Part shown: piece by piece, positions 1 through 32,100 of the stretch
Layout: every line of letters starts with the position of its first letter
Position numbering within the stretch: the stretch's first letter is position 1
DNA from: Sipunculus nudus
Taxonomy: Eukaryota > Annelida > Sipuncula > Golfingiida > Sipunculidae
Length of the DNA: 64,000 nt
Reading direction: 5' to 3'
Assembly: GCA_026874595.1 (NCBI GenBank)
Contig: CM049317.1
Location: forward strand, 46,214,401 to 46,278,400
The notes under the pieces: generated by a model
The model's database searches: none
What the model was told of the DNA's origin: nothing
What the model saw: the letters and a program-made list of their open reading frames with translations, nothing else
Program-made: the position numbers and the translations under genes

Positions 1-3000
1 CAGTGTACTCTGTCCCTGTAGAATAATGATATACATACGTTACTGCAATCTGTTTGTGTAGAATAATGATATACAGAAGTCACTCAGTGTTCTCTGTCCC
101 TGTAGAATAATGATATACAGAAGTCACTCAGTGTTCTCTGTCCCTGTAGAATAATGATATACATAAGTCACTCAGTGTTCTCTGTCCCTGTAGAATAATG
201 ATATACATACGTTACTGCAATCTGTTTGTGTAGAATAATGATATACAGAAGTCACTCAGTGTTCTCTGTCCCTGTAGAATAATGATATACAGAAGTCACT
301 CAGTGTTCTCTGTCCCTGTAGAATAATGATATACATAAGTCACTCAGTGTACTCTGTCCCTGCAGAACAATAATATCATAAGTCACTCAGAGTACTCTGT
401 CCCTGTAGAACAATAATATCATAAGTCACTAAGAGTACTCTGTCCCTGTAGAATAATAATATACATAAGTCACTCAGTGTACTCTGTCCCTGTAGAATAA
501 TGATATACATAAGTCACTCAGTGTACTCTGTCCCTGCAGAATAATATACATAAGTCACTCAGTATACTCTGTCCCTGCAGAATAATGATATACATAAGTC
601 ACTCAGTGTACTCTGTCCCTGTAGAATAATGATATGCATAAGTCACTCAGTGTACTCTGTTCCTGTAGAATAATGATATACATAAGTCACTCAGTGTACT
701 CTGTCCCTGTAGAATAATAATATACATAAGTCACTCAGTGTACTCTGTCCCTGTAGAATAATGATATACATAAGTCACTCAGTGTACTCTGTCCCTGTAG
801 AATAATGATATACATAAGTCACTCAGTATACTCTGTCCCTGTAGAATAATGATATACATAAGTCACTCAGTGTTCTCTGTCCCTGTAGAATAATGATATA
901 CATACGTTACTGCAATCTGTTTGTGTAGAATAATGATATACAGAAGTCACTCAGTGTTCTCTGTCCCTGTAGAATAATGATATACAGAAGTCACTCAGTG
1001 TTCTCTGTCCCTGTAGAATAATGATATACATAAGTCACTCAGTATACTCTGTCCCTGTAGAATAATGATATACAGAAGTCACTCAGTGTTCTCTGTCCCT
1101 GTAGAATAATGATATACATAAGTCACTCAGTATACTCTGTCCCTGCAGAATAATATACATAAGTCACTCAGTGAACTCTGTCCCTGTAGAATAATGATAT
1201 ACATAAGTCACTCAGTGTACTCTGTCCCTGCAGAATAATGATATACATAAGTCACTCAGTGTACTCTGTCCCTGCAGAATAATGATATACATAAGTCACT
1301 CAGTGTACTCTGTCCCTGTAGAATAATGATATACATAAGTCACTCAGTGTACTCTGTCCCTGTAGAATAATGATATACATAAGTCACTCAGTGTACTCTG
1401 TCCCTGCAGAATAATATACATAAGTCACTCAGTATACTCTGTCCCTGTAGAACAATAATATACATAAGTCACTCAGTGTACTCTGTCCCTGTAGAATAAT
1501 GATATACATACGTTACTGCAATCTGTTTGTGTAGAATAATGATATACAGAAGTCACTCAGTGTTCTCTGTCCCTGTAGAATAATGATATACAGAAGTCAC
1601 TCAGTGTTCTCTGTCCCTGTAGAATAATGATATACATAAGTCACTCAGTGTTCTCTGTCCCTGTAGAATAATGATATACATACGTTACTGCAATCTGTTT
1701 GTGTAGAATAATGATATACAGAAGTCACTCAGTGTTCTCTGTCCCTGTAGAATAATGATATACAGAAGTCACTCAGTGTTCTCTGTCCCTGTAGAATAAT
1801 GATATACATAAGTCACTCAGTGTACTCTGTCCCTGCAGAACAATAATATCATAAGTCACTCAGAGTACTCTGTCCCTGTAGAACAATAATATCATAAGTC
1901 ACTCAGAGTACTCTGTCCCTGTAGAATAATAATATACATAAGTCACTCAGTGTACTCTGTCCTTGTAGAATAATGATATACATAAGTCACTCAGTGTACT
2001 CTGTCCCTGCAGAATAATATACATAAGTCACTCAGTATACTCTGTCCCTGTAGAATAATGATATACATAAGTCACTCAGTGTACTCTGTCCCTGTAGAAT
2101 AATGATATACATAAGTCACTCAGTGTACTCTGTCCCTGTAGAATAATGATATACATAAGTCACTCAGTGTACTCTGTCCCTGTAGAATAATGATATACAT
2201 AAGTCACTCAGTGTACTCTGTCCCTGCAGAATAATATACATAAGTCACTCAGTATACTCTGTCCCTGTAGAATAATGATATACATAAGTCACTCAGTGTA
2301 CTCTGTCCCTGTAGAATAATGATATACATAAGTCACTCAGTATACTCTGTCCCTGTAGAATAATGATATACATAAGTCACTCAGTATACTCTGTCCCTGC
2401 AGAATAATGATATACATAAGTCACTCAGAGTACTCTGTCCCTGTAGAATAATGATATACATAAGTCACTCAGTGTACTCTGTCCCTGTAGAATAATGATA
2501 TACAGAAGTCTTTCAGTGTTCTCTGTCCCTGCAGAATAATGATATACATAAGTCACTCAGTGTACTCTGTCCCTGTAGAATAATGATATACATAAGTCAC
2601 TCAGTATACTCTGTCCCTGTAGAACAATAATATCATAAGTCACTCAGAGTACTCTGTCCCTGTAGAATAATAATATACATAAGTCACTCAGTGTACTCTG
2701 TCCCTGTAGAATTATGATATACATAAGTCACTCAGTGTACTCTGTCCCTGCAGAATAATATACATAAGTCACTCAGTATACATTGTCCCTGTAGAATAAT
2801 GATATACATAAGTCACTCAGTGTACTCTGTCCCTGTAGAATAATGATATACATAAGTCACTCAGTGTACTCTGTCCCTGCAGAATAATATACATAAGTCA
2901 CTCAGTATACTCTGTCCCTGTAGAATAATGATATACATAAGTCACTCAGTGTTCTCTGTCCCTGTAGAATAATGATATACATACGTTACTGCAATCTGTT

Positions 3001-4878
3001 TGTGTAGAATAATGATATACATAAGTCACTCAGTGTACTCTGTCCCTGCAGAACAATAATATCATAAGTCACTCAGAGTACTCTGTCCCTGTAGAACAAT
3101 AATATCATAAGTCACTCAGAGTACTCTGTCCCTGTAGAATAATAATATACATAAGTCACTCAGTGTACTCTGTCCCTGTAGAATAATGATATACATAAGT
3201 CACTCAGTGTACTCTGTCCCTGCAGAATAATATACATAAGTCACTCAGTATACTCTGTCCCTGTAGAATAATGATATACATAAGTCACTCAGTGTACTCT
3301 GTCCCTGTAGAACAATAATATCATAAGTCACTCAGAGTACTCTGTCCCTGTAGAATAATAATATACATAAGTCACTCAGTGTACTCTGTCCCTGTAGAAT
3401 AATGATATACATAAGTCACTCAGTATACTCTGTCCCTGTAGAATAATGATATACATAAGTCACTCAGTATACTCTGTCCCTGCAGAATAATGATATACAT
3501 AAGTCACTCAGAGTACTCTGTCCCTGTAGAATAATGATATACATAAGTCACTCAGTGTACTCTGTCCCTGTAGAATAATGATATACAGAAGTCACTCAGT
3601 GTTCTCTGTCCCTGTAAATTAATGATATACATAAGTCACTCAGTGTACTCTGTCCCTGTAGAATAATGATATACATAAGTCACTCAGTATACTCTGTCCC
3701 TGTAGAATAATATCATAAGTCACTCAGAGTACTCTGTCCCTGTAGAATAATGATATACATAAGTCACTTAGTGTACTCTGACCCTGTAGAATAATGATAT
3801 ACATAAGTCACTCAGTGTACTCTGTCCCTGCAGAATAATATACATAAGTCACTCAGTATACTCTGTCCCTGTAGAATAATGATATACATAAGTCACTCAG
3901 TATACTCTGTCCCTGTAGAATAATGATATACATAAGTCACTCAGTGTACTCTGTCCCTGCAGAATAATATACATAAGTCACTCAGTATACTCTGTCCCTG
4001 TAGAATAATAATATACATAAGTCACTCAGTATACTCTGTCCCTGTAGAATAATGATATACAGAAGTCACTCAGTGTTCTCTGTCCCTGTAGAATAATGAT
4101 ATACATAAGTCACTCAGTGTACTCTGTCCCTGTAGAATAATGATATACATAAGTCACTCAGTATACTCTGTCCCTGTAGAACAATAATATCATAAGTCAC
4201 TCAGAGTACTCTGTCCCTGTAGAATAATAATATACATAAGTCACTCAGTGTACTCTGTCCCTGTAGAATAATGATATACATAAGTCACTCAGTGTACTCT
4301 GTCCCTGCAGAATAATATACATAAGTCACTCAGTATACTCTGTCCCTGTAGAATAATGATATACATAAGTCACTCAGTATACTCTGTCCCTGTAGAATAA
4401 TGATATACATAAGTCACTCAGTGTACTCTGTCCCTGTAGAATAATGATATACATAAGTCACTCAGTGTACTCTGTCCCTGCAGAATAATATACATAAGTC
4501 ACTCAGTATACTCTGTCCCTGTAGAATAATGATATACATAAGTCACTCAGTGTACTCTGTCCCTGTAGAATAATGATATACATAAGTCACTCAGTGTACT
4601 CTGTCCCTGTAGAATAATGATATACATAAGTCACTCAGTGTACTCTGTCCCTGCAGAATAATATACATAAGTCACTCAGTATACTCTGTCCCTGTAGAAT
4701 AATGATATACATAAGTCACTCAGTATACTCTGTCCCTGCAGAATAATATACATAAGTCACTCAGTATACTCTGTCCCTGCAGAATAATATACATAAGTCA
4801 CCCAGTTTATTCTGTCCCTGTAGAATAATGATATACAGAATTCATTCAGTGTTCTTTGTAGAATAATGATATACATAC
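1..4878. repeat. 44-bp satellite array in separase intron 17
   Basis: About 110 head-to-tail copies of a 44-bp unit, cagtgtactctgtccctgta followed by gaataatgatatacataagt and cact. Variants: a 41-bp form lacking GAT in the AATAATGATATAC stretch, a 43-bp form with 'gaacaataatatcataag', a CAGAAGTCACTCAGTGTTC form, and a diverged unit containing ACGTTACTGCAATCTG. The array is cut by the left edge. The right end decays at 4800-4878. No open frame or gene is seen. Confidence 0.98.
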
Positions 4879-5039: not shown

Positions 5040-5432
5040 ACTGATAAAATTCTGGCATAGGTGCACACAACACAAAAATGATTGTAGCTGGCACCACCAG
5101 TCTTGTATACAACAAAGCTATCAGAGATATATACATATGCCAAATTTCAGACTGATATGTCAAACCCCTCCTGAGAAATAAACAGGGACATACACTGTGC
5201 AAAAATTATTGTAGGTGGCACCACTGGTCTTGTACACAACAGGCGATCTGATATGTATAAATATACCCAATTTCAGCCTGATATATCAAATTCCTCCGTA
5301 GAAATAAGCATGCACATACACTGTGCAAAATTCATTGTAGGTGGCGACACCTGTCTTGTGAACGAGAAAACCATCAAAGATACATAGACAGGTCAAAATA
5401 TCAGGCCAATACACCAAACTTCCCTTGAGTTT
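5040..5432. repeat. Three diverged ~135-bp pearl-like core monomers
   Basis: Three successive copies of a segment with 'attgtaggtggcaccac...cttgta' and 'tatgccaaatttcagNctgatatgtcaaa'. They resemble the half-unit of the tandem core in the element at 30668-32251. No element ends were recognised, so this is a fragment. Confidence 0.75.
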
Positions 5433-5439
5433 GATGCAC

Positions 5440-6165
5440 TGGGCTGACCAGGCTTAGGTGAAAAAGGCAGTTGCCCGAGTGAACTGTGACAAATTGCTGG
5501 CTCAAGCTACTGCACTGACTGAACTCTTGACCTGCACCTGGCTAGACTGAGTGAACATTTGACCTGCACCTGGCTGCACTGAGTGAACTCTCGACCTGTT
5601 GCATAAACTGACAAAGTTGGCAGTCTGCCAAAGCTATAAAGAGATACAGGCTGAACTTTGGTGCCAAATATGATGCAGTGAGCAGTCTGCCAAAGCTATA
5701 AATAGAATGCAGCTACTGCACTGAGTGAACTCTTGATCTATACCTGGCTGCACTTCTTCAAATCCTGGCATTGTGCCAAAACTATTTATAGAGCTGACAT
5801 CATCTTGGCTAATGGCCAACATCAAGGCACTGGCAATCTGCCAATGTTAAACCAAGTGCTGCCTTCTGTACACAAAAGTGGTCCCTACTTCAAATAACTC
5901 TGACCTGTATCTGGCTGCACTAAGTGAATTCTTGACCTGTTGCATAATCTGATGCAGTGGGCAGTCTCGCCAAGCCATAAACAGAATGCAGCCACTACAA
6001 TGAGTGAACTCTTGACCTATACCTGGCTGCACTGAGTGAACTCTTGACCTGTTGCCTAATCTGATACAGTTGCCAGTCTGCCAAAGCTATAAATACATCC
6101 TGGCTGACCTTTTGCCTGTTGAGAAATCTGAAATAGCTGGCAGTCTGCCAAGCTATTTAACCTGA
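5440..6165. repeat. Degenerate tandem repeat
   Basis: Repeated blocks of 'ctgcactgagtgaactcttgacct' type and 'ggcagtctgccaaagctata' occur at least five times with irregular spacing. It translates into short open frames on the minus strand that are only repeat. No gene seen. Confidence 0.8.
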
Positions 6166-6169
6166 AATC

Positions 6170-7265
6170 TAAATGTCTAGTGGCATGATGTAATAGATGC
6201 TGATAAACTGGTGCCAGGCTAGATGTAACTGCTTCACAAAGCTTACATATATGGCAAAATGACTCAATTCAATCTCCATAATTCAGCCAAAAATCATTCA
6301 TGTGGAACCATTAAAGACAATTATTATAAGAATTATTGTGGGGATTATTCCTATTAAACAAACTGACCTCAGTGGCGTCAGTAGAAAAATGTTTTGCAGG
6401 GTTAAAACTCATACAGGAAATTACAGCAAAATGGCTAAGTTCAACTTCCTGTAACTCAGCCAAAAATCACTGAACCAAAACCATTTGAACAAACTTGAAT
6501 TATCAACATCTAAGGATAATTAATGTGTGAGATTTAAGAATTAGGCCCAGAGGTTTTTATGAAGAAGATCTTTGTAGCCACTGAACTGAAATGTGCTGTA
6601 ATGGCATATGACTAAATTCAGCTTCCCATAACTTCACCACTGAACTGAGACCATTTGAACAAACTTCAGAAAGCACTACCTTACGATTATTTCTGTGAGA
6701 TATTAAACAATTGGCCATATGGTTTCAGAGAAGAAGTTTTTTGTAGCCCTCAGTATGATACAGGCACTGATGACCCCCGTACAAAAAAGGCTGATGCAGG
6801 TTGGCCACCAACACCTCAATTTCAGATATGACTCGTGACCAACATTGGAATAAAATTTGGTGATGATAGCTCCAGCCGTTTCTGAGATTGTAATTTTAGT
6901 ATGCTTTTCTGGACAGATGACTAAGTTCAACTTCCTGTAACTCGGCCAAAAATCAACGAACTTAAACCATTTGAACAAATTTAAGAGAAACTGTTCCAGG
7001 AATCGTTTCTGAGAAATATTGGACAAATTTTTGGAGAAGATGATTTTAAAAGGTTTTTTAGCCTTTTCCCTATTAAATCTAAGAAAATGCAGTTAGCAAA
7101 AAAATAAGCAAAATCTGAGTTTTTTGGATGACTAATTTTTTGCATAAAATTTGGTGATGCTAACTCCTGCCATTTTCAAAATAGTATGAGTTAACTTACA
7201 GACGACGGATGCTGGATGACGGACCACGCCACACCATCACATAAGCTCATGAGGTCCCAAGCATT
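6170..7265. repeat. Dispersed repeat with three related segments
   Basis: The motif 'taagttcaacttcctgtaactc' followed by 'gccaaaaatca' and 'accatttgaacaaa' recurs near 6430, 6620 and 6920. The right end carries a GACGGA-type run at 7200-7230, a feature shared with the large Helentron-like family in this window. No coding content. Confidence 0.65.
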
Positions 7266-7365
7266 TTACTTATCTTTCCCAACAAAAAAATCTCACAGAA
7301 TTAAGATACGCATTTTGTAAAATGTTATCTAATCCTACAATGTAATACCTATTCTAACTTGTATC

Positions 7366-8046
7366 TTTTGTCTGATGATATTTCAAAGAAATCCTTTACA
7401 ATCTTCCCCTCCTCTGATAATATTTCAAGGAAATCCTATACAACCTTGACCTGCTATGATGATATTTCTAAGAAATATTTTAAATACAATCTTGAACTGC
7501 TCTTATGATATTTCTAAGCAATTGTACACAGCCTTCACCTATTTAGATATTTCAAAGAAAATCCTACACAGCCTTCACCTCCGCTGATAACATTTCTATG
7601 AAAACCTTTATAACCTTGACCTGCTCTGATGATATTTCTGAGAAATCCTAGCTACACAACTTTCACCTTCTCTGATGATATTTCTAAGACATCCTATACA
7701 ACCTCTACCTTCCTGATTATATTTGTAAGAAATCCTACACAACCTTCACGTTCTCTGATGACATGTCGAAGAAATCCTATACAAACGTGACCTTCTCTGA
7801 TATTTCAAAGAAATCCTATACAACCTTGACCTCCTCTGATGATATTTGTAAGAAATCCTACACAACCTTCACGTTCTCTGATGACATGTCGAAGAAATCC
7901 TATACAAACGTGACCTTCTCTGATATTTCAAAGAAATCCTATACAACCTTGACCTCCTCTGATGATATTTGTAAGAAATCCTATACAACCTTCACCGTCT
8001 CTGATATTTCTAAGAGATCCTGTACAACCTTAAACTCATCAGATAT
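7366..8046. repeat. 39-42 bp minisatellite abutting the exon 17 donor
   Basis: About 16 copies of 'tctgatgatatttctaagaaatcctatacaaccttgacc' type, 39 bp with optional +3 bp, including an exact ~120-bp duplication (7750-7990). The last partial copy ends a few bases from the separase exon 17 splice donor at 8050. A 112-codon frame on the plus strand reads through it because unit lengths are multiples of three; it is not taken as a gene. Confidence 0.92.
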
Positions 8047-8050
8047 TTAC

Positions 8051-8175
8051 CTGTTTAGTGCTGTATCCTGGCAAGTGGGCTATCACAGGACTCTCTCCTG
8101 AGCGATACTGTGTCACATACATGGAGCCTGGACCAATCACAGATGTTACAGCACTCACATGACACACCGTCAGAT
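8051..8175 (-). CDS. ESPL1: Separase exon 17 (residues 2120-2161), last exon in window
   Basis: 125 bp. The acceptor atctgcag joins the final G of exon 16 to give DLTVCHVSAVTSVIGPGSMY, matching human '[20 protein letters not shown]'; it ends 'HLPGYSTKQ', matching 'QIPTGQNK', at donor GTAAAT. Phase 0 at the end. The next human segment (with a WW pair before the catalytic region) was not found between here and position 1. Confidence 0.92.
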
Positions 8176-11100
8176 CTGCAGATGATACAGATTGAATACT
8201 CAATGTAACACCTCCATAAGAAAACTCAAAAGTTAAATGAGATATGAATCCCAGATCCCAATTTTGAAAGATTTTGGTATCAAAACAAGGCTCTATATCA
8301 CAGTGATTCATAGTGCTTTCAAGTTTTCTTGTAACTATATGTTAAGATTTATCTGGAAGATACATTGTGTTCTTTGGGTATATATATACATATGGTATTT
8401 TCAAGCCTTAAAGATGCACTGATCTGCTTGAATATACTAGGTCTGTGTTAAAATGGTTTTAAAACTTCTCATTTTTCCTGTGCTTTAGAAATATACATAT
8501 ATAACCCATGGGTCATGACGCTCAGCTGCCAAGCATGACCTGTGACATCATGGACTGAGATTCACAACTTCCAGTCAAATTTTGAAGGACCAATTTGCCA
8601 ATTTGTTAAAAATTTTCTATGACAACAGAAATATATATCACCTATGTCTGGTTAAAACACAGTGAATTGATGGTCTGAGGAAAATGCATGATTGTTAAGC
8701 TATCAGGAACTATTCCAACAGCTTGCTTGAAACCTGTCAGTCTCAAAAGGAACACCATAAAGGGCAAATATAAGATCAAAATATATAGCAAAAATCAAGG
8801 AAATACATGCAAGAATTATTGAGAAACAGGTGCTTCTGTACTGCACTTTTATGGTAATATTTATTCAGAAATATTTGACCCAATCCTTTACAAGATTACA
8901 TAAATATACATCCAACTGCATTCACTTTAACTGTTCTTGAGATAATATGATCAAAAGGAATTAAAAGATGGTTGCCTGGTGGCCATATTGGACTTCTGAC
9001 AAGTCTGAAATCAGACAACAAACATTCTCTAAATCGGACCAAACATTAAAGAAAAATTACTGAAACTGCACTGAAGAAAGAATTTCTAAGGTGGCTAACT
9101 GGCAGACATAATGGATTTCTGACAAGTATGACATTTGATATCCCACATTCTCCAATAAGAGACCAAACTTGGGGCAAATTATCCAGTAATAAATGCCCAA
9201 AATAATTCAAAAGGCATGTCCAGGCCCTCATATCAGATTTATAGATATGCAATTGTAAAAAGTGTAAGTCCAATATTTTTTATTATCACTCTGCTTTTCA
9301 ATGGGGTCAGCAGGGTAGGTAAACTGCCAAACCTGAAAGAAAAGAAATGCAGAAAGCATGACTAAGAGTCTTGAAATAAAACAAAAAGCCATCCTAAATC
9401 AAGGTACACATCCACATATTATGAGAACAAACACTTGCTTTTATATGTGGTGATATATATTAAAATATTCAGATATCTAGGAAACTAAGTTTATTGCTAG
9501 GATTCCATAAAATAAACTGCAAAATGTTCCCATCATCTTATAAATCAGTAGCTAAACCTTAATACTAAACTCTCATAGTCTTAATGCCTGGCTGAAGCAT
9601 TCTGACAACAGTGTTTTTGTTATGAAGTAACGAGGTACTTATCACTGAGCCTTATCACTTAATAGGCTGATACAAAAGGGAGTCATATGTCACCAGTGTC
9701 ACTCACAATTACAGCCACACAGGCAGATGTACCAGCTGGAGTGGGATGGTTATATATACAAGAAAAATAGAGATGGTCTATAAAATAAGTAATTGTGAAC
9801 ATCCCTGACCAATGACCTTGGCTTTTTGCCCATATATCAACTGGATTCTTTCTAAATGATGGGTAACTACTGACCACTAAAATCTGGTGTAATTACTTGG
9901 CAACCAATGGGTGAATAACTTTGACCTGCAACCTTTAACCTGCTGACCAGCTGACCCCAAAATCAATAAGTTATTTATTCATGCAAAAAGACCCATAAAT
10001 ATGAAGTTTGAGTCAAACTGAGTGATGCATAGATGTGGCATATGTGAAAGACTGAAGGTTTGGGTTGAACAGTTACACTTGAAATATGCTCACAAGCATT
10101 TAGAACAATTAAATATTGCGACCTTGACCTCTGACCTCAACATCAATAGGCTTCTTCCCTTTTTGGTAGGTAAGCCATATATGACAGATGGAAGGTACAG
10201 ATTGAAAAGTTTGCCTGAAAATGATTCCACGCAAGAAGTGGGTGCTGTGAACTTGACCTTTGACCTCAAAATCAACAGGTCTTTTCCCCTGTTGGCAGAG
10301 AAGCGATATCAGTGCTGGAAGGTTTGGAATGAAAAGTCTAGCTTGAAATGTGTCCACTACCTTTTCAAAGAAGTGGATCCTGTGACCCTGACCTTTGACC
10401 TTGTAACCTCAAAATCTATAGGATTCTTCTCCAACTTAGTAGGTGAGCTATATGTGAAAGATCAAAGAATTGGGATGAAAGGGTTGGCTTAAAATGCATC
10501 CACAGGCTTTTCAAAGAAGAGGCTCCTGTGACCTTGACCTTTTGACCTAAAAAAAATTATGGTTCTTCCCTTGTTGGTATGTGAGCTGTATGTGAAAGAT
10601 GGAAGGTTTGGGATGAAAATTTTGTCTCAAAGAGTTATTTCTGGGGGGTGCAAACACACCCCATAACTTCGAGAATATAGGTCGCAGTGACCTAATTTCA
10701 GGTTTGCAAGGAGATCTTTTTATAACCTCTAAGACTGCATAGGGTTCATGGCCCTAGCCCCTACGGTTACGATTTGTGCCCTGCTAACGGCCGGCCGGCC
10801 AGACAGACGGACAGACGGAAGGACGACGGACAAAGACCCATCGCTATAGCCCAGCATGACTGAAAGTCAGCTGAGCTAAAAACTAGGGGTGGGGGGTGTA
10901 GTCATGGCTTTTTTCGGATTAAGAATATCTGTAATCTGCTTTATATGGGCTCCCAAGAGATTTCAAATTTTATGATTAATTATTCAAATGAAAATGTTTA
11001 TCAGAGCATTCTAGACGGTGCATATAAAGGATACATGTCATTGGTAACAATATTTCAGCAGGGACTGATGGGGTTTGACACTCAGTCACAATAACTGAAA

Positions 11101-17100: not shown

Positions 17101-20100
17101 CTGCATTTCTGTTGGTTTCCTGATGTTTTATCATTCGTGCTCTTATCTGGAGTAGCTACCACTGATGTGAGCAGGTACTGAGTTGAATGAAGTCGGTACT
17201 CACAATCCATAAGTCTTGCACTGAGGCATTCAAGACGACCCAAACTCAGGTGGCACAGGCTTGCCCTGACAAAGTACAGAGAAGTTAAATTAAAATATTA
17301 ATATGCAACATTTAAAAAAACACTCCCTCTTATGTATCCATCATGCAAGTTGGCAAATTTCAGGGATTCTGTCCTGAATGGTAAATTTTCAAGAGAAAAA
17401 AATTGTTCAATCACCAAATGTTTTATGTCCTAGGGTCTGTTTTATGGTTTGGCTTTATTCTTAGAAAAGTGAAAAATATCAATTTAGATCCAACAGACAT
17501 CCCCCCTCCAAAAAAAAAAAAACTTTGTTTGCCTATTGATCACATGATCACATATTTAGTAGCAGAAAGTGGAGACTGTAGCAATGCATTATCTTACAGA
17601 AATAATTGAGGAGAAGCAAATGGGATTTGTAAGCTAAGTTGAAAATGTGAACCACTCACCAGCGTGGCAGGTTGAATGCCTGAGAGATCTTTTGTGCTTG
17701 TCTGAGGTAGCACTTTGCCTCTCTGGGTTCTCCAAGTTCCACAAACATAATGCCTGCCTGCATGAGGCACTCCAGCAGGTCCGTCAGTATGCCCCACTTG
17801 GCCAGGGTGTTATCAGGCACTGTAATATAATATTGTCAGTTATCTGCTGGTACAGATAAAAAATAAATACAGATGCTGTACTCTCACAATGAACAAATCT
17901 ACACTGAGGATTTCAAATGAAAAACATGTTATGTATAAATATTTAGATTTATGAAAAGTGTATTGACAAGAGCCTGCTGCTGAGACAAGTCATAAATCCA
18001 AGCAACACACATTTTAAGAGTTTACTATTGTATGTAAGCATAGCTATTTTACATTGCAAGCACTGAATGCAGGGCATAATGCACATATATATTGAAAAAT
18101 ACGTGGTACCACCTATCTTCAAGGTGATGCCTCAAATCAATCAAATAATAATCCACACAGAGGCATGAACTGTTTTACATGTGTTTACTGAGACCAACCT
18201 TTGTCACTGAGGCTTGATCCACTGAGCACCCAGCCACCAAGGACAGAGTTAGCCAGACAGCCCTGAGCCCTACATGCCTCGATGCTAACAGCAAGCGGCT
18301 CCCCTTTGTTAAAGGTCTCTGGAAGCTCCGTACTCTGTGTGGAGAGTATTTTGGACAGCAGCCTCTTTATGGATGCCTTTAATCTGAGGCTCTCCTTGTT
18401 CTTCAATTTATAGTTGGTATCCAGTAAATCTGACGCCTTCTTATACACTAAGTATGCTTTTTTCACCTAAAACATACAATTAGTTCACATCAATATCAAA
18501 ACTAGAAAAAGGTAGCCATCAGCATTCCTTCAGAAGACCTCCTTTAAGCTGGCCGCCTCCTCTGACCTGTACCTTGATATATATGCTCTGAGCTGTATCT
18601 TGATGTACATGCTAAATTTAATTTTTCTGCTTCAACAAATTCAGAATTTTACAAGATGTACATACATGAAGTCGAGGTTAACCATATCTATGCACATACA
18701 AATTTAAAAGATATGATTCAATTATTTTTTTAATTATCATGCTGTCTGTGAAGATGAAAATCTTACAGCTGGCCTGGACAAGATCCACTGCAACATCATT
18801 ACATGGCTCTGAGTGGCTGATAGTCTGATCAGCTGGTCTGGACAAGGTTTGGCTTTTGCCTTACTACACTTTTTGAAAGATGGGTTTTTATCTGAACAAG
18901 GTTATGCCTTCCACTTTACTATGAATGACACTCTCTGAATGTGCTAGGATCACAAATCACTTGATGCTTGGTAAAAATGTACAACAGGGCACAGGACTAG
19001 CTAAGGTCACATGTAATGTTGTGAAAAATAAACAAGAGGAAAACAAAAAAGCAATCTTTGGCTTTAGTACTCTGTTTGTGATTCATAGAAGATGTAAACA
19101 TATTTGTGTACTTTTACAATTAGAGGTCATCATTCACAAACTTTTCATGACATCTGAATAATGATACTGCATGTAACACACATCTTAGATTAAGTCAGAT
19201 AGCAGATGTAACATTACCTGTCCAATCATAAGATGTGTCTCAGATTAAGTCAAAATATACCAGATATAACATTACCTGTCCCATCATAAGATGTGTCTCA
19301 GATTTAGTCACAAGATATCAGATATACCATTACCTGTCCCATCATAAGATGTGTCTCAGATTTAGTCACAAGATAGCAGATATAACATTACCTGTCCCAT
19401 CATGAGATGTGTCTCAGATTTAGTCACAAGATAGCAGATATAACATTACCTGTCCAATCATAAGATGTGTCACAGATTTAGTCACAAGATAGCAGATATA
19501 ACATTACCTGTCCAATCATAAGATGTGTCACAGATTTAGTCACAATATACCAGATATAACATTACCTGTCCCATCATAAGATGTGTCTCAGATTTAGTCA
19601 CAAGATATCAGGTATAACATTACCTGTCCCATCATAAGATGTGTCTCAGATTTAGTCACAAGATATCAGGTATAACATTACCTGTCCAATCATAAGATGT
19701 GTCACAGATTTAGTCACAATATACCAGATATAACATTACCTGTCCCATCATAAGATATGTCTCACATTTAGTCACAAGATTTCAGGTATTACATTACCTG
19801 TCCCATCAAAGAATGTGTCTCAGATTTAGTCACAAGATAGCAGATATAACATTACCTGTCCCATCATAAGATGTGTCTCAGATTTAGTCACAAGATAGCA
19901 GATATAACCATAGCTAGAAGTGACTTTGCTGTCTCTGACAGACTCTGTGTTGACTTCTTCATCCGTCACGTTGATGACCTCGGCAGCCTTTACAGGATGA
20001 CCAAGCTGTAGCCAGGCTTGAGCCATCATAGAACTGGTGCGTATACTCAGCTCCAGGTTATCATTGTGAACAGCCAGCTTCTTCTGCAGGTGCAGTGCTC

Positions 20101-23100
20101 TCAGCTGCCACAGAGGCTGAAACAGGGATGTCAACACTGTGATAAAACTAATCTGGCCATATAAAACACAGCCATGCAAACAGCTAAAATGCAAATAAGA
20201 TACATGGGCTCAAGTGCCACATATTTAAACATGTTCATGAAACGGATTTATAAATTTATTTGTTAAACAGCTTACTGAAAAACAGTCAAGAATGGCATTC
20301 AAAAGATTAGTTTCCATGGACTGAGCCATCCTGAACTGCATGAGAACACAATGAAATATATGATTAAAATGTTTGTCAATTTCTTTTACAGCAGAATATT
20401 TTTTATGCTGTGTAACTGGACCTCAGCTTGACATTTGGGCTCATTTCTCTGACTTTTCAGATGCTGGCTAACATTGGTACAATTTTTGTAGTGTAAATCC
20501 ACCTTAACTGGATCTCAGCACGTTTATTGACAGCCTTGATTTGTTAGGACACAGAATTACCTTGACAGCCAGGCAGTATATGGAGCTGATGATGCTGACG
20601 TAATCCAGGACCTCCTGGCATACACCTCTCTCCATCTTCCCTGAAACACTGCTCATGAACCTCTCAAAAAGTCCCAAGGCTTCCTCCAAGGGTGCATGGG
20701 AATTCATCTCCATGGAAACAGTTGCAGCACTGGCATCTTGGTTTTCTGAGAGGGTGAGGTCATCAGGCATGTCTGACTGGTTAGTTTCCTGAGGTCTGCT
20801 CACTTTGTCTTTCACATTGGTAGCTCTCAGCTTATTCAAAAGCACACAACAACATGAAGCAATCATTGAACAAAATATATCCACAATACAAATGAAATAC
20901 AAATGAAGTGTATTAGATTTAAATAAATATTATGAATTAGCTTTAACATTATGTTTTCTCAAAGTTTAATTCCTGACAAAAATTCCTTTACTTTAATATA
21001 TAATAATTTTGGGGGTACATATATGTACTGTGAAATGATGACCACCAATGGGACCTAGATAAAGTGGTTGCATTTTTGAGGTTGTTGTCTCAGCGAGGTC
21101 GGATATAAAGAGGCTTAAAGAGCAAAAAAGATTTGGGGGCCTGGAAAAGTGGCTGTTTATTGAGGTGGTAGCTAATCTGAGGTGGTTGTTAGGCAAAGTT
21201 TTACTGTACTTGTGTAATCAGTTAGTGTACATGTAGACCTTGTGAGATCTGGAGACATTGATAATGTGTCAATGTATGTTATTCATCCAATATTTTAAAT
21301 ACATGGATCATGGTGCTTTGTCAATGAACATTGCTTGGGACACTGTAGCCTTACATCGACTGAGAATAATGGTAAAACTCACCAATTTGACAATTTTTGA
21401 AGAATCAATTAGTAGGTTTTATTTTATTTTTTTTTCAGATGTTTTTCAGATGCAGCAGGTTATTTCAATATTGTTTAAAGCAACATCTATATATGTCATA
21501 TATCATCTTTTAGCTAACACTGTATCATTACTGTTGTGCTAAATTACCACAAAACTTGCCAGGGCAACCTCCCTCATGGAGCTAGTTAAGGTAGCACAGT
21601 GAATCATTAATTCTAAATACCTCAGCCTCTCTAATATGAAAGCTACTGTATTAAAGAAAAAATATGAGCAATAAGCTAAAAAAGTGCCACTTTTCAAACT
21701 CAATATAATCATTAAACTTACATCATAATAAAGTATTCATAGGTCATGCCACCAGCCTTGGATGAAAAAAGTTGCTCCAGGTTAAAATGTATAGCATATT
21801 TAATGGCAATCCACACTTCCACAATTGAGGAACCAAATGTTTAATAATTGTATATTCTAGAATTCTAAACTTAGCAACTATTGTGGAACTTAATAACCTG
21901 CAATGTAAATATGAAATGCATATGAACCAACCTGTACAGGGTCAGTATCAGACAGGATGTAGCTCCACACCAGGGCTTTAGCACGTACAATGTTGTACTG
22001 TCCTGCTTCCTTTGGTTGTTTCTTCACCAGGTCCAACTGATCTAAACACTCTTGACACATTTTTGGAAGTTCTCTACAATGAAACCCCAAATACATCAGT
22101 GCACAGGACTACACTGTTTGTTTAAGTTCATGTAAATAGTGACCAAACTCAAAGCGTTATTACCTCTGGCAGTCAGTGAATGAAGTTGGCAGTTATATGT
22201 TCACCATACTGTTTATAAAAAAAATACCTCCAAAAGTTAATCATGATTGAATATAAAGGAATTTTATTATATTTGCCCAACTGTCTGTTTATTCAAAATA
22301 TATCTTCAAATGTTAATAATGCATATCAATATTTTTTGGATTGTTCGTTCACAAGCAAAGACAGAGTTAGAAAAGTTAAATTTGGGGTGAAATGGGTGTG
22401 GATATTGGCAATAGTGGCAGCTATAATATGTGAAAGTGCTTTCTTATTTTCTTTTGTCCAACAGAAATAAAAATGCGGAAGGATTTCTAGTTTTTTCTGA
22501 TTCTATATATGCTTAATACCTGTATGGCTGCTAAATACCTCCATATTTACAGTCTCTATAGCTGATAAATACCTCCTAACTTACAGGTCTCTACAGTTGC
22601 CTAACACTTCAAAAATTTATTAGTCTGTACAGCAAATACAGAAACCTTAATATCTGGTCAGTACAGCTGCTTAATACATCAGATTTAACTAGATATTTCT
22701 TGGCACCGCAGGTGCCATAGTATCCCCAGACAATTAACCCCCCCCCCCCTCCCAGCCTCGAAGAATAGGATCCCATCTTGAATTCAGATGCAGAGACTGA
22801 CACTTGGCAAGCCACCATGGTTTCTTATAAGTATGGGCATATTTAAGGTAAAGGTCACTCTCAAAGGAGAGGTCATGATTCAAATTGAAATATATCTCAT
22901 TCCATAACCCATATCTATATACATGATATGAAAGAAATCTGTCCATTTGTTTTCAATTTATCATGCTAACAGTGCTGTCAAGTGGCAATGGTGGGGTATT
23001 AACAGGTGCAAAAGCAAGAAAATGACACAACGTGATGCCACCTGTATTCTGCAGAAGAGAAAAAAAAAAATCCAAGGTTTATAAAAAAAAATTTAAATTA

Positions 23101-29100: not shown

Positions 29101-32100
29101 GACGGACGGACGACGGACAATGGACCACGACTATAGCTTAGATGACTTATAGTCGGCTGAGCTAAAAATAAGTGCAAATATTATGTTTTCTCTGGTTTCC
29201 TCCACCCTTACCAACTATCAAGTGCTAACATCCAAGCCATGGAGACTGCCTCGTAATACCGGTAGTTATTATAACTAAGTGTACAATCCCTGTAAAATAA
29301 ATTATGTAATAATGTTTATATTATATCAAACACAATTCCCCCTTTTTTTAAATATTGCCACAGCATGTTTACTACACTTAATAAGTTCATGTAAACGGCC
29401 TAAAATTTCCACTTAAAGATGATGATTTAAGCAAATACGATAAAAAATATTATCTCCTAAAAAAGTATAAAAAGAAGTATATTACTTTTAAAATAAGTAC
29501 AAAGTGGCAGCTCTGGGTTAACTACCTTCCTTACCTCTAATGCTTTACAGCCAGTTTTATCCTTCTCACAGTAAAGACTCAGATATCTGCATGCTGTGGC
29601 CATGAAGTCTATTGCTGGCTCATAGAATCCTCCTTGGTAAGCCACCTGGCCAAACCTGCCTGCAAGGTTACCTGAAACCAAGATACACAACCATTTCAGA
29701 CAAAATTCATTTTTCCTAAACTAAATTTCTGCTGGAAACAAGAGGGGATGCAAGTGACCTACAGGATATGGAGCCTGAGCAGCTTATCAATGAGGAGCTA
29801 TATCAAGGACTTGTGACTCGCATAATTTCTCTGCCTATCAATGAGGAGCTATATATATAATTTCTCAGCTTATCAATGAGGAGCTATATCAAGGACTTGT
29901 GACTCGCATAATTTCTCTGCCTATATATATATGTGTGATATATATATATAAAAGTGACACCATTTCCATAGACTAACTTGCTTATTAATACACAAGCTTT
30001 CGAAGCGCAGAGGCTTCTTCCTCCGGTAGTAGGTGGGAACACGTAGAGAGGTGCTTATGTATGGTGGAATCATATAACATCCACAACCTTTTTAAAGTTG
30101 AAGGTCATGTGACCCTGAACTTTGATCTAATAACCAAAATATATAGAGTTCTTACTTTAGTGGTAGGCCATATATAAGTCAAGATTGAAACCAATATTTC
30201 AATCCAACCTGGAGTTATCATCTGGAAACAAATATGTGCACAGATGGCACCCATAACCTTGACCTTTGACCTTGTGATTCCAATATCAATCAGGTTCTTC
30301 CCCTATTGGCTGGTCAGCTGTATGTGCAAGGTGGAAGGTTTGGGATGAAAAGTATGGCTTAAAATGCAACCAAAATCTTTCCTAATATGTGGGTTCTGTG
30401 TCCTTTGACCTTGTGACCCCAAAATGAATAAAGTTCTTGCTTTCAAAGGTGGGCCATATAGAAGTCAAGTCTGAAATCCGAATGTCAATCCAACTTGAGT
30501 TATCATTAGGAAACAAATTCGACAAACATACTGAAAGAAGGACAGTGACCGGATAGGCTGATTACTATAGGGCATCTGCCTGTTCAAGCAGAGCCTTAAT
30601 ATTAAACACAAAGTTTCAGGACACAGGATGACAATACAGCTGCGAATCTGATAGTATCAATACAAAACTAGAATACGGGTAGTCGACAAGCGACTACTTG
30701 TATCCGCCTAAATCAGAGTGGAACGGGTGAAGTGTTGCATATTAGCATGGATATTTTATCCCATGGCAGACAAACAGATGGGAGCTGTGCAAACATGGCT
30801 GCAGGTGGCGCCACCAGTTTTGCGTATGATAAAGAGCTATGTGAGATTTATACACATGCAAAATTTTGGCCCAATCGGTCAAACGGTTCCCTAGATATGA
30901 GCTTGGATGTCGCAGCGTAAACTTGATTGTAGGTGGCGCCACCTGTCATAAAATCAGAAAAGCTATCCAGGATGTATAAGCATGCCAAATTTCAGGTGAA
31001 TTAGTCAAACCACTGCAGAAATATGAGTGATTTTAACCCAAGGCAGACGAACAGATGGACACTGTGCAAACATGGTTGCAGGTGGTGCCACCATTTTCAG
31101 TGTATGTTATAAAGCTCTCCAAGGGCTACATTTGTGCAAAAAAATTTTCCTGATCGGTCAACAGTTCCTGAGATATGAGCTTGGATGTCTGCAGCATAAA
31201 CGTGAATGTAGGTGGCGCCACCTGTCATAAAATCAGAAAAGCTATCCAGGATGTATACGCATGCTAAATTTCAGGTGAATTAGTCAAGTCACTGCAGAGA
31301 TATGAGTGATTTTAACCCAAGGCAGACAAACAGATGGACACTGTGCAAACATGGTTGCAGGTAGCGCCACCATTTTTGGTGTATGTTATAAAGCTCTCCA
31401 AGGGCTACATTTGTGCAAAAGAATTTTCCTGATCGGTCAAACGGTTCCTGAGATATGACTTTTGATGTCTGCAGCGTAAACGTGAATGTAGGTGGCGCCA
31501 CCTGTCATAAAATCAGAAAAGCTATCCAGGATGTATACGCAAGCCCAATTTCAGGTGAATTAGTCAAGTCACTGCAGAGATATGAGTGATTTTAACCCAA
31601 GGCAGACGAACAGATGGACACTGTGCAAACATGGTTGCAGGTGGCGCCACCATTTTTGGTGTATGTTATAAAGCTGTCCAAGGGCTACATTTGTGCAAAA
31701 GAATTTTCCTGATCGGTCAAACGGTTCCCAAGATATGAGCTTGGATGTCTGCAGCGTAAACGTGAATGTAGGTGGCGCCACCTGTCATAAAATCAGAAAA
31801 GCTATCCAGGATGTTAACGCATGCCCAATTTCAGGTGAATTAGTCAAGTCACTGCAGAGATATGAGTGATTTTAACCCAAGGCAGACGAACAGATGGACA
31901 CTGTGCAAACATGGTTGCAGGTGGCGCCACCATTTTTGGTGTATGTAATAAAGCTCTCCGAGGGCTACATTTGTGCAAAAAAATTTTCCTGATCGGTCAA
32001 ACGGTTCCCGAGATATGTGGGTTTATGTGTGGAAACAGACGCACAAACGGACGCAGAGCGCAAAGGAAAGGTCAGAGGTCAAAACAAAATCGGGGCGCAG

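Follow-up and report, generated by a model that had tools for sequence, protein, structure and literature searches.

The separase gene and its array

The window analysed here, a 64-kb stretch of DNA, carries on its minus strand exons of a separase gene, one of which runs into a tandem array that repeats its own splice donor (Table 1). The joined exon translations are collinear with separin (chain 7nj1, residues 641-1060, E 6.5e-5), of which residues 1581-1670 are matched by two exons further on (E 6.2e-8). An uninterrupted frame spans the array-bearing exon and the three after it; one of the last two is 2870 nt long. These collinear matches and a frame consistent over four exons bear out the host gene named in a preliminary description of this DNA. 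A C50 protease domain was not found in the 10 ORFs scanned within the window, past which the gene may extend.

The array-bearing exon joins the following one in phase 0, which together with the open frame identifies the donor at 19855 as the one that makes the protein. The junction had been placed at 19856, which is correct for the last exon base, but the intron begins at 19855. This intron measures 1389 nt, of which the array takes up about half, and its acceptor (TGTATGTTTTAG at 18467) lies ~730 nt past the array.

Table 1. Features of the separase locus (window positions) and of the six other arrays at exon ends with protein support (positions by locus)
Feature	Position	Strand	Remarks
Separase exon bearing the array	20116..19856	-	exon 11 of the preliminary description; 261 nt, 87 codons, phase 0 end; acceptor TCCCTGTTTCAG, donor GTAATGTTA
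Exonic share of repeat unit 0 (final 53 nt of the exon)	19856..19908	-	equals array consensus at 53/53 positions
Authentic donor CAG|GTAATG	19850..19858	-	the only donor among the 12 whose use leaves an open frame into the following exon
Twelve full 58-bp units, one CAG|GTAATG each	19213..19908	-	TRF, motif search and unit alignment
Intronic part of the array, 11 decoys	19212..19855	-	G of GT from 19797 to 19217, motif search
Partial terminal unit, diverging	19180..19212	-	3-base deletion; TRF edge at 19197
Following separase exon	18199..18466	-	acceptor TGTATGTTTTAG; unrelated to the array unit
L026, ABCC/MRP transporter exon end	5887-7618		Pfam 27 vs 28 bits, just under the cut-off; PDB E 8.7e-10
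L027, 3-hydroxyacyl-CoA dehydrogenase (HADH) exon end	5409-10000		match ends two residues before the exon end; 73 copies
L031, importin-13 exon end	5837-7375		solved protein aligned to the last exon residue
L032, M1 aminopeptidase exon end			protein comparison
L033, PP2A B56 exon end			protein comparison; solved protein reaches the last exon residue
L034, FAM220-like ORF			match to residues 4-86 of 130; exon end beyond the match, open frame continuous

A motif search of the window finds GACAG|GTAATG twelve times on the minus strand, each step being exactly 58 bp. GACAGGTAATG occurs twelve times on this strand, with the G of GT at 19855, 19797, 19739, 19681, 19623, 19565, 19507, 19449, 19391, 19333, 19275 and 19217, and an exact CAGGTAATG is present in 12/12 units. 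TRF reports the array at 19197-19908 with a period of 58, 12.3 copies, 92% matches and 0% indels. The exact 58-bp period and the twelve junction copies noticed earlier are therefore upheld by both methods, and so is the succession of one real donor (19855) and eleven decoys directly after it. All 11 decoys equal the authentic donor from -5 to +6.

The repeat unit consists of the final 53 nt of the exon followed by GTAAT, in the register GTTATATCTG...GACAG|GTAAT. The exonic share had been put at ~43 bp, which is too short: exon bases 19908..19856 match the array consensus throughout, an extent reached by 0/2000 shuffles. Unit 0 (19908..19851) adjoins the exon and includes the donor at 19855; its sequence is that of the array consensus and of unit 9. 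Two more identical pairs, units 3 and 6 and units 4 and 5, point to recent copying at the level of units. Across the array, 16/58 columns are variable, none of them within the donor. When the array DNA was compared with the assembly (1.43 Gb, 153 contigs), no locus besides separase was matched within the limits of the search tool, so there is no sign of a dispersed family.

Use of any decoy, or retention of the intron, is predicted by translation to add nine codons and then a stop, identical in all cases (...MMGQ VMLYLLSCD*). The number of units cannot alter the truncated product, only its frequency. On the whole, the preliminary description holds for the repeated exon/donor junction in separase, the decoys and the early in-frame stop. 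It is not supported as to the seed of the first duplication, which it saw in the recurrence of GTTATATCTG after the donor. This recurrence is merely the start of unit 2; the match continues through the whole unit and is not independent evidence on how the first duplication began.

Similar arrays elsewhere in the assembly

Further arrays were sought with donor 9-mers, as three motifs 39-69 bp apart, with the motif read backwards as control. The 23 loci examined comprise 10/10 listed for CAGGTAATG, 10/15 listed for CAGGTAAGT and 3/12 for CAGGTGAGT on contigs C1-C4; the latter three (L032-L034) were picked from the 12 for their exonic-looking units, so their 3/3 success gives no rate. Six of the 23 loci, all on contigs C2-C4, start at an exon end with protein support and contain 22-58 nt of exon sequence per unit. 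Judged by protein comparison, the arrangement recurs at exon ends of an ABCC/MRP transporter, importin-13, HADH, an M1 aminopeptidase, PP2A-B56 and a FAM220-like ORF.

One more array (L022, 2084-4295 on C1) has a 62-bp unit and begins precisely at a TPR-exon donor (E 1.5e-8). Its unit is without exon sequence (3 nt). Four loci are candidates. In L012, L017 and L024 the frame is open up to the first donor, with no family match above the cut-off (for L012, ATG7_N at E 0.016, under the cut-off, and no PDB match); L025 has a weak PH match (E 0.023), also under the cut-off. At these four loci a match between the ‘exon end’ and the unit is no proof of an exon, being simply the first unit. The other 12 of the 20 fetched CAGGTAATG and CAGGTAAGT arrays showed no convincing exon. 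In L012 (780-5716 on C1) a 58-bp unit with a donor is repeated ~85 times; the highest copy numbers counted are 85 for this candidate and 73 for the HADH array.

Are splice donors favoured birthplaces of minisatellites? In the assembly, sites with three motifs outnumber those with the reversed motif, although such sites are not independent arrays and all counts are lower bounds: at least 520 vs at least 84 for CAGGTAATG, at least 325 vs at least 128 for CAGGTAAGT and at least 444 vs at least 83 for CAGGTGAGT. Distinct arrays counted by eye on C1-C4 (405 Mb) number 14 for CAGGTAAGT vs 6 for its control (one-sided p = 0.12), and single words occur 15,332 vs 12,946 times. Not every CAGGTAAGT word is a real donor; under assumed numbers of those that are, the array excess rises to between 3- and 7-fold (p from 0.025 down to 0.0004). 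In 264 kb, made up of the window and the 20 fetched loci, there are 51 arrays with periods of 20-150, of which as many as 21 are the arrays sought. The DNA examined is rich in minisatellites, so a random array will at times span a donor. We regard the excess of minisatellites at donors as suggestive. It is possible but rather doubtful that donors are favoured birthplaces in this genome. On that reading several genes, including conserved ones, bear many copies of their own exon end with its donor, and position rather than local sequence would have to decide correct splicing in them; the genome would then amount to a natural library of the duplicated-donor experiment, and separase, whose 12 donors are alike from -5 to +6, to a clean case.

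Relation to known repeats

Turri, Cuin and Porter (1995) reportedly described, in the interferon-induced transcript of IFI6/6-16, a minisatellite that provides multiple splice donors. Like the separase array, it offers many donors within one gene.

The closest parallel is the VNTR in intron 18 of human ABCA7. According to PMC5954066, this repeat includes the exon-18 donor and has a 25-bp unit that opens with the donor GT; it varies in people from 12 to about 427 units, and both its splicing effects and disease risk have been measured. Retention of one unit, with a frameshift and a premature stop, was seen at a frequency independent of length, while skipping of the following exon increased with VNTR length. 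ABCA7 demonstrates that splicing can be influenced by a repeat that spans a donor. The separase array likewise begins at an exon donor and repeats it, and use of the next copy would retain one unit and lead to a stop. Its 58-bp unit with 53 nt of exon differs from the 25-bp unit of ABCA7, for which no long exon segment is described there. L022, which starts at the donor without exon sequence, is nearer in form to the ABCA7 VNTR.

Two other systems are more distant. In potato RdRp (PMC4974935), an intron was gained when a segment crossing an exon/intron border was duplicated in tandem. In separase, too, the duplicated segment crosses such a border, but in potato a single duplication at an acceptor created a new intron, whereas separase has many donor copies and no new intron. 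The intronic tandem repeat of dog LHX3 (7 bp, intron 5) alters splicing with its copy number (PMC3223203) and acts through the length of a short intron while the donor is unaltered.

The separase array adjoins an exon, includes its donor and carries a potential donor in each unit, and so belongs with the donor-spanning VNTRs and minisatellites. Its kind is already known from human genes; the array is a striking member and reveals no new mechanism. What it adds is a unit with a long exon piece, the location in separase and evidence for recurrence at several conserved genes of one genome. In the literature searched, which leaves out most subscription papers, no listed paper treats donor-spanning minisatellites as a class across a genome.

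The choice among several equal donors is usually studied in engineered minigenes. Here, twelve natural donors share one core and a near-equal exonic context, and RNA reads could show their use by position and number. In addition, gene predictors may misplace exon ends in genomes with such arrays, and the human repeat tied to disease risk gains company of an invertebrate type. If the first donor alone is ever used, the array is a neutral curiosity.

Origin of the array and use of its donors

We consider it quite probable that the separase array is a nearly neutral, donor-spanning minisatellite that arose by tandem duplication of the exon end; this degree of confidence was set to reflect the donor-column excess reported below for all nine arrays. 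A stretch of 58 bp, made of 53 nt of exon end and 5 nt of intron, would have been duplicated in tandem. In a genome with many arrays of this sort, it would then have grown into the intron as a by-product of a duplication process begun at the exon end.

How could a gene with twelve nearly equal donors be spliced? Because donor and exonic context were copied together, the copies differ mainly by their position, and because both are nearly equal in every copy, position may well be what chooses. The first donor, which defines the shortest exon and is made first, would be mostly used; if correct separase is made, this donor is presumably favoured by exon length or by order of synthesis. Decoys would be rarely used and the resulting transcripts removed by nonsense-mediated decay, leaving the array nearly neutral. 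By analogy with ABCA7, a leak with one-unit retention and a premature stop, and an effect of length on skipping, may hold here too.

The conservation of donors within units was compared in separase and eight other arrays. In none of the nine is the donor 9-mer an outlier: the windows at least as conserved number 4/58, 42/58, 24/55, 24/44, 8/30, 13/42, 9/53, 31/63 and 29/62. Donor columns are on average slightly more conserved than other columns in 9/9 arrays, a result against strict neutrality that carries a selection bias. Eight of the nine arrays had been selected because three adjacent donors were intact, and only copies with an intact donor entered the consensus, so a slight excess is to be expected. 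In L012, GT is retained in just 37/85 copies, which means that its decoys decay through the spread of a variant. For separase, the invariant donor reaches p = 0.042 (9 columns) or 0.019 (11 columns) for chosen columns. An invariant run of 12 columns appears anywhere in the unit in 24% of shuffles, and selection on the decoys was rejected as a reading of their invariance (P = 0.24). That all 12 donors are intact is mildly unusual at best. Within units, the decoys show no clear sign of protection or of purging, which favours near-neutrality over a tuning or poisoning role.

Such a role had been suggested earlier. In this reading, decoy use would rise with copy number, yielding transcripts longer by 58n, a premature stop and less separase. 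The decoys do have the real donor's sequence and share most of its 53-nt exonic context, and a stop is predicted from each of them. Moreover, one-unit retention does occur in human ABCA7, where the product is a target of nonsense-mediated decay, but its level is unchanged with length (PMC5954066). The donor columns are no outliers in nine arrays, and comparable arrays stand at unrelated genes. We find tuning or poisoning of separase splicing by the array somewhat disfavoured and, taken as the explanation of the locus, improbable.

The direction of copying can also be addressed. The separin alignment crosses the join of the array exon without a large insertion, with two-residue gaps on each side and weak local support. 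As this alignment is collinear, if weak, across the join, the 53 nt that close the exon most likely represent old coding sequence and gave rise to the intronic copies, and the exon as source of the array is well supported. The opposite course, in which the exon end was taken from an intronic minisatellite and the 53 nt are new coding sequence, would account for an exon copy that equals the array consensus exactly. It is nevertheless very unlikely given the passage of the separin alignment into the next exon; in addition, solved proteins align to the exon's last residue for B56, ABCC2 and importin-13, where the exon end clearly predates its copies. Intron gain from a duplicated AGGT-bearing exon segment, the array being the intron and supplying both GT and AG, has a mechanism in print (PMC4974935) and suits units that are 58-nt GT...CAG stretches joined as CAG|GT, but it is the least credible of all, as the acceptor, which that model takes like the donor from a unit copy, lies outside the array and is unlike the unit, and the array is only about half of the intron.

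Several minor features were noted. A scan of the window for bacterial promoters and terminators is irrelevant to the separase gene, and its hits mostly recur with the unit. The fold of the whole array RNA was discarded as a signal (z = -1.03, 4/20 shuffles equal), as was a donor hairpin CAGGUA/UAUCUG, which has -5.6 kcal/mol at the authentic donor, with 16/200 shuffles folding equally well; two variants at -7.0 were matched by 5/200 and 9/200 shuffles. Two decoys lie inside a perfect 6-bp inverted repeat CAGGTA...TACCTG (window 19609-19626 and 19667-19684), and the stem recurs at the authentic donor, where one of its pairs is G-U; against shuffles this is not significant. TRF also reports a minisatellite of ~113 copies of a 44-bp unit at window 1-4877, up to the window edge, and more tandem arrays near or within the gene region at 7371-8031 (units of 42/123 bp) and 30753-32017 (280 bp).
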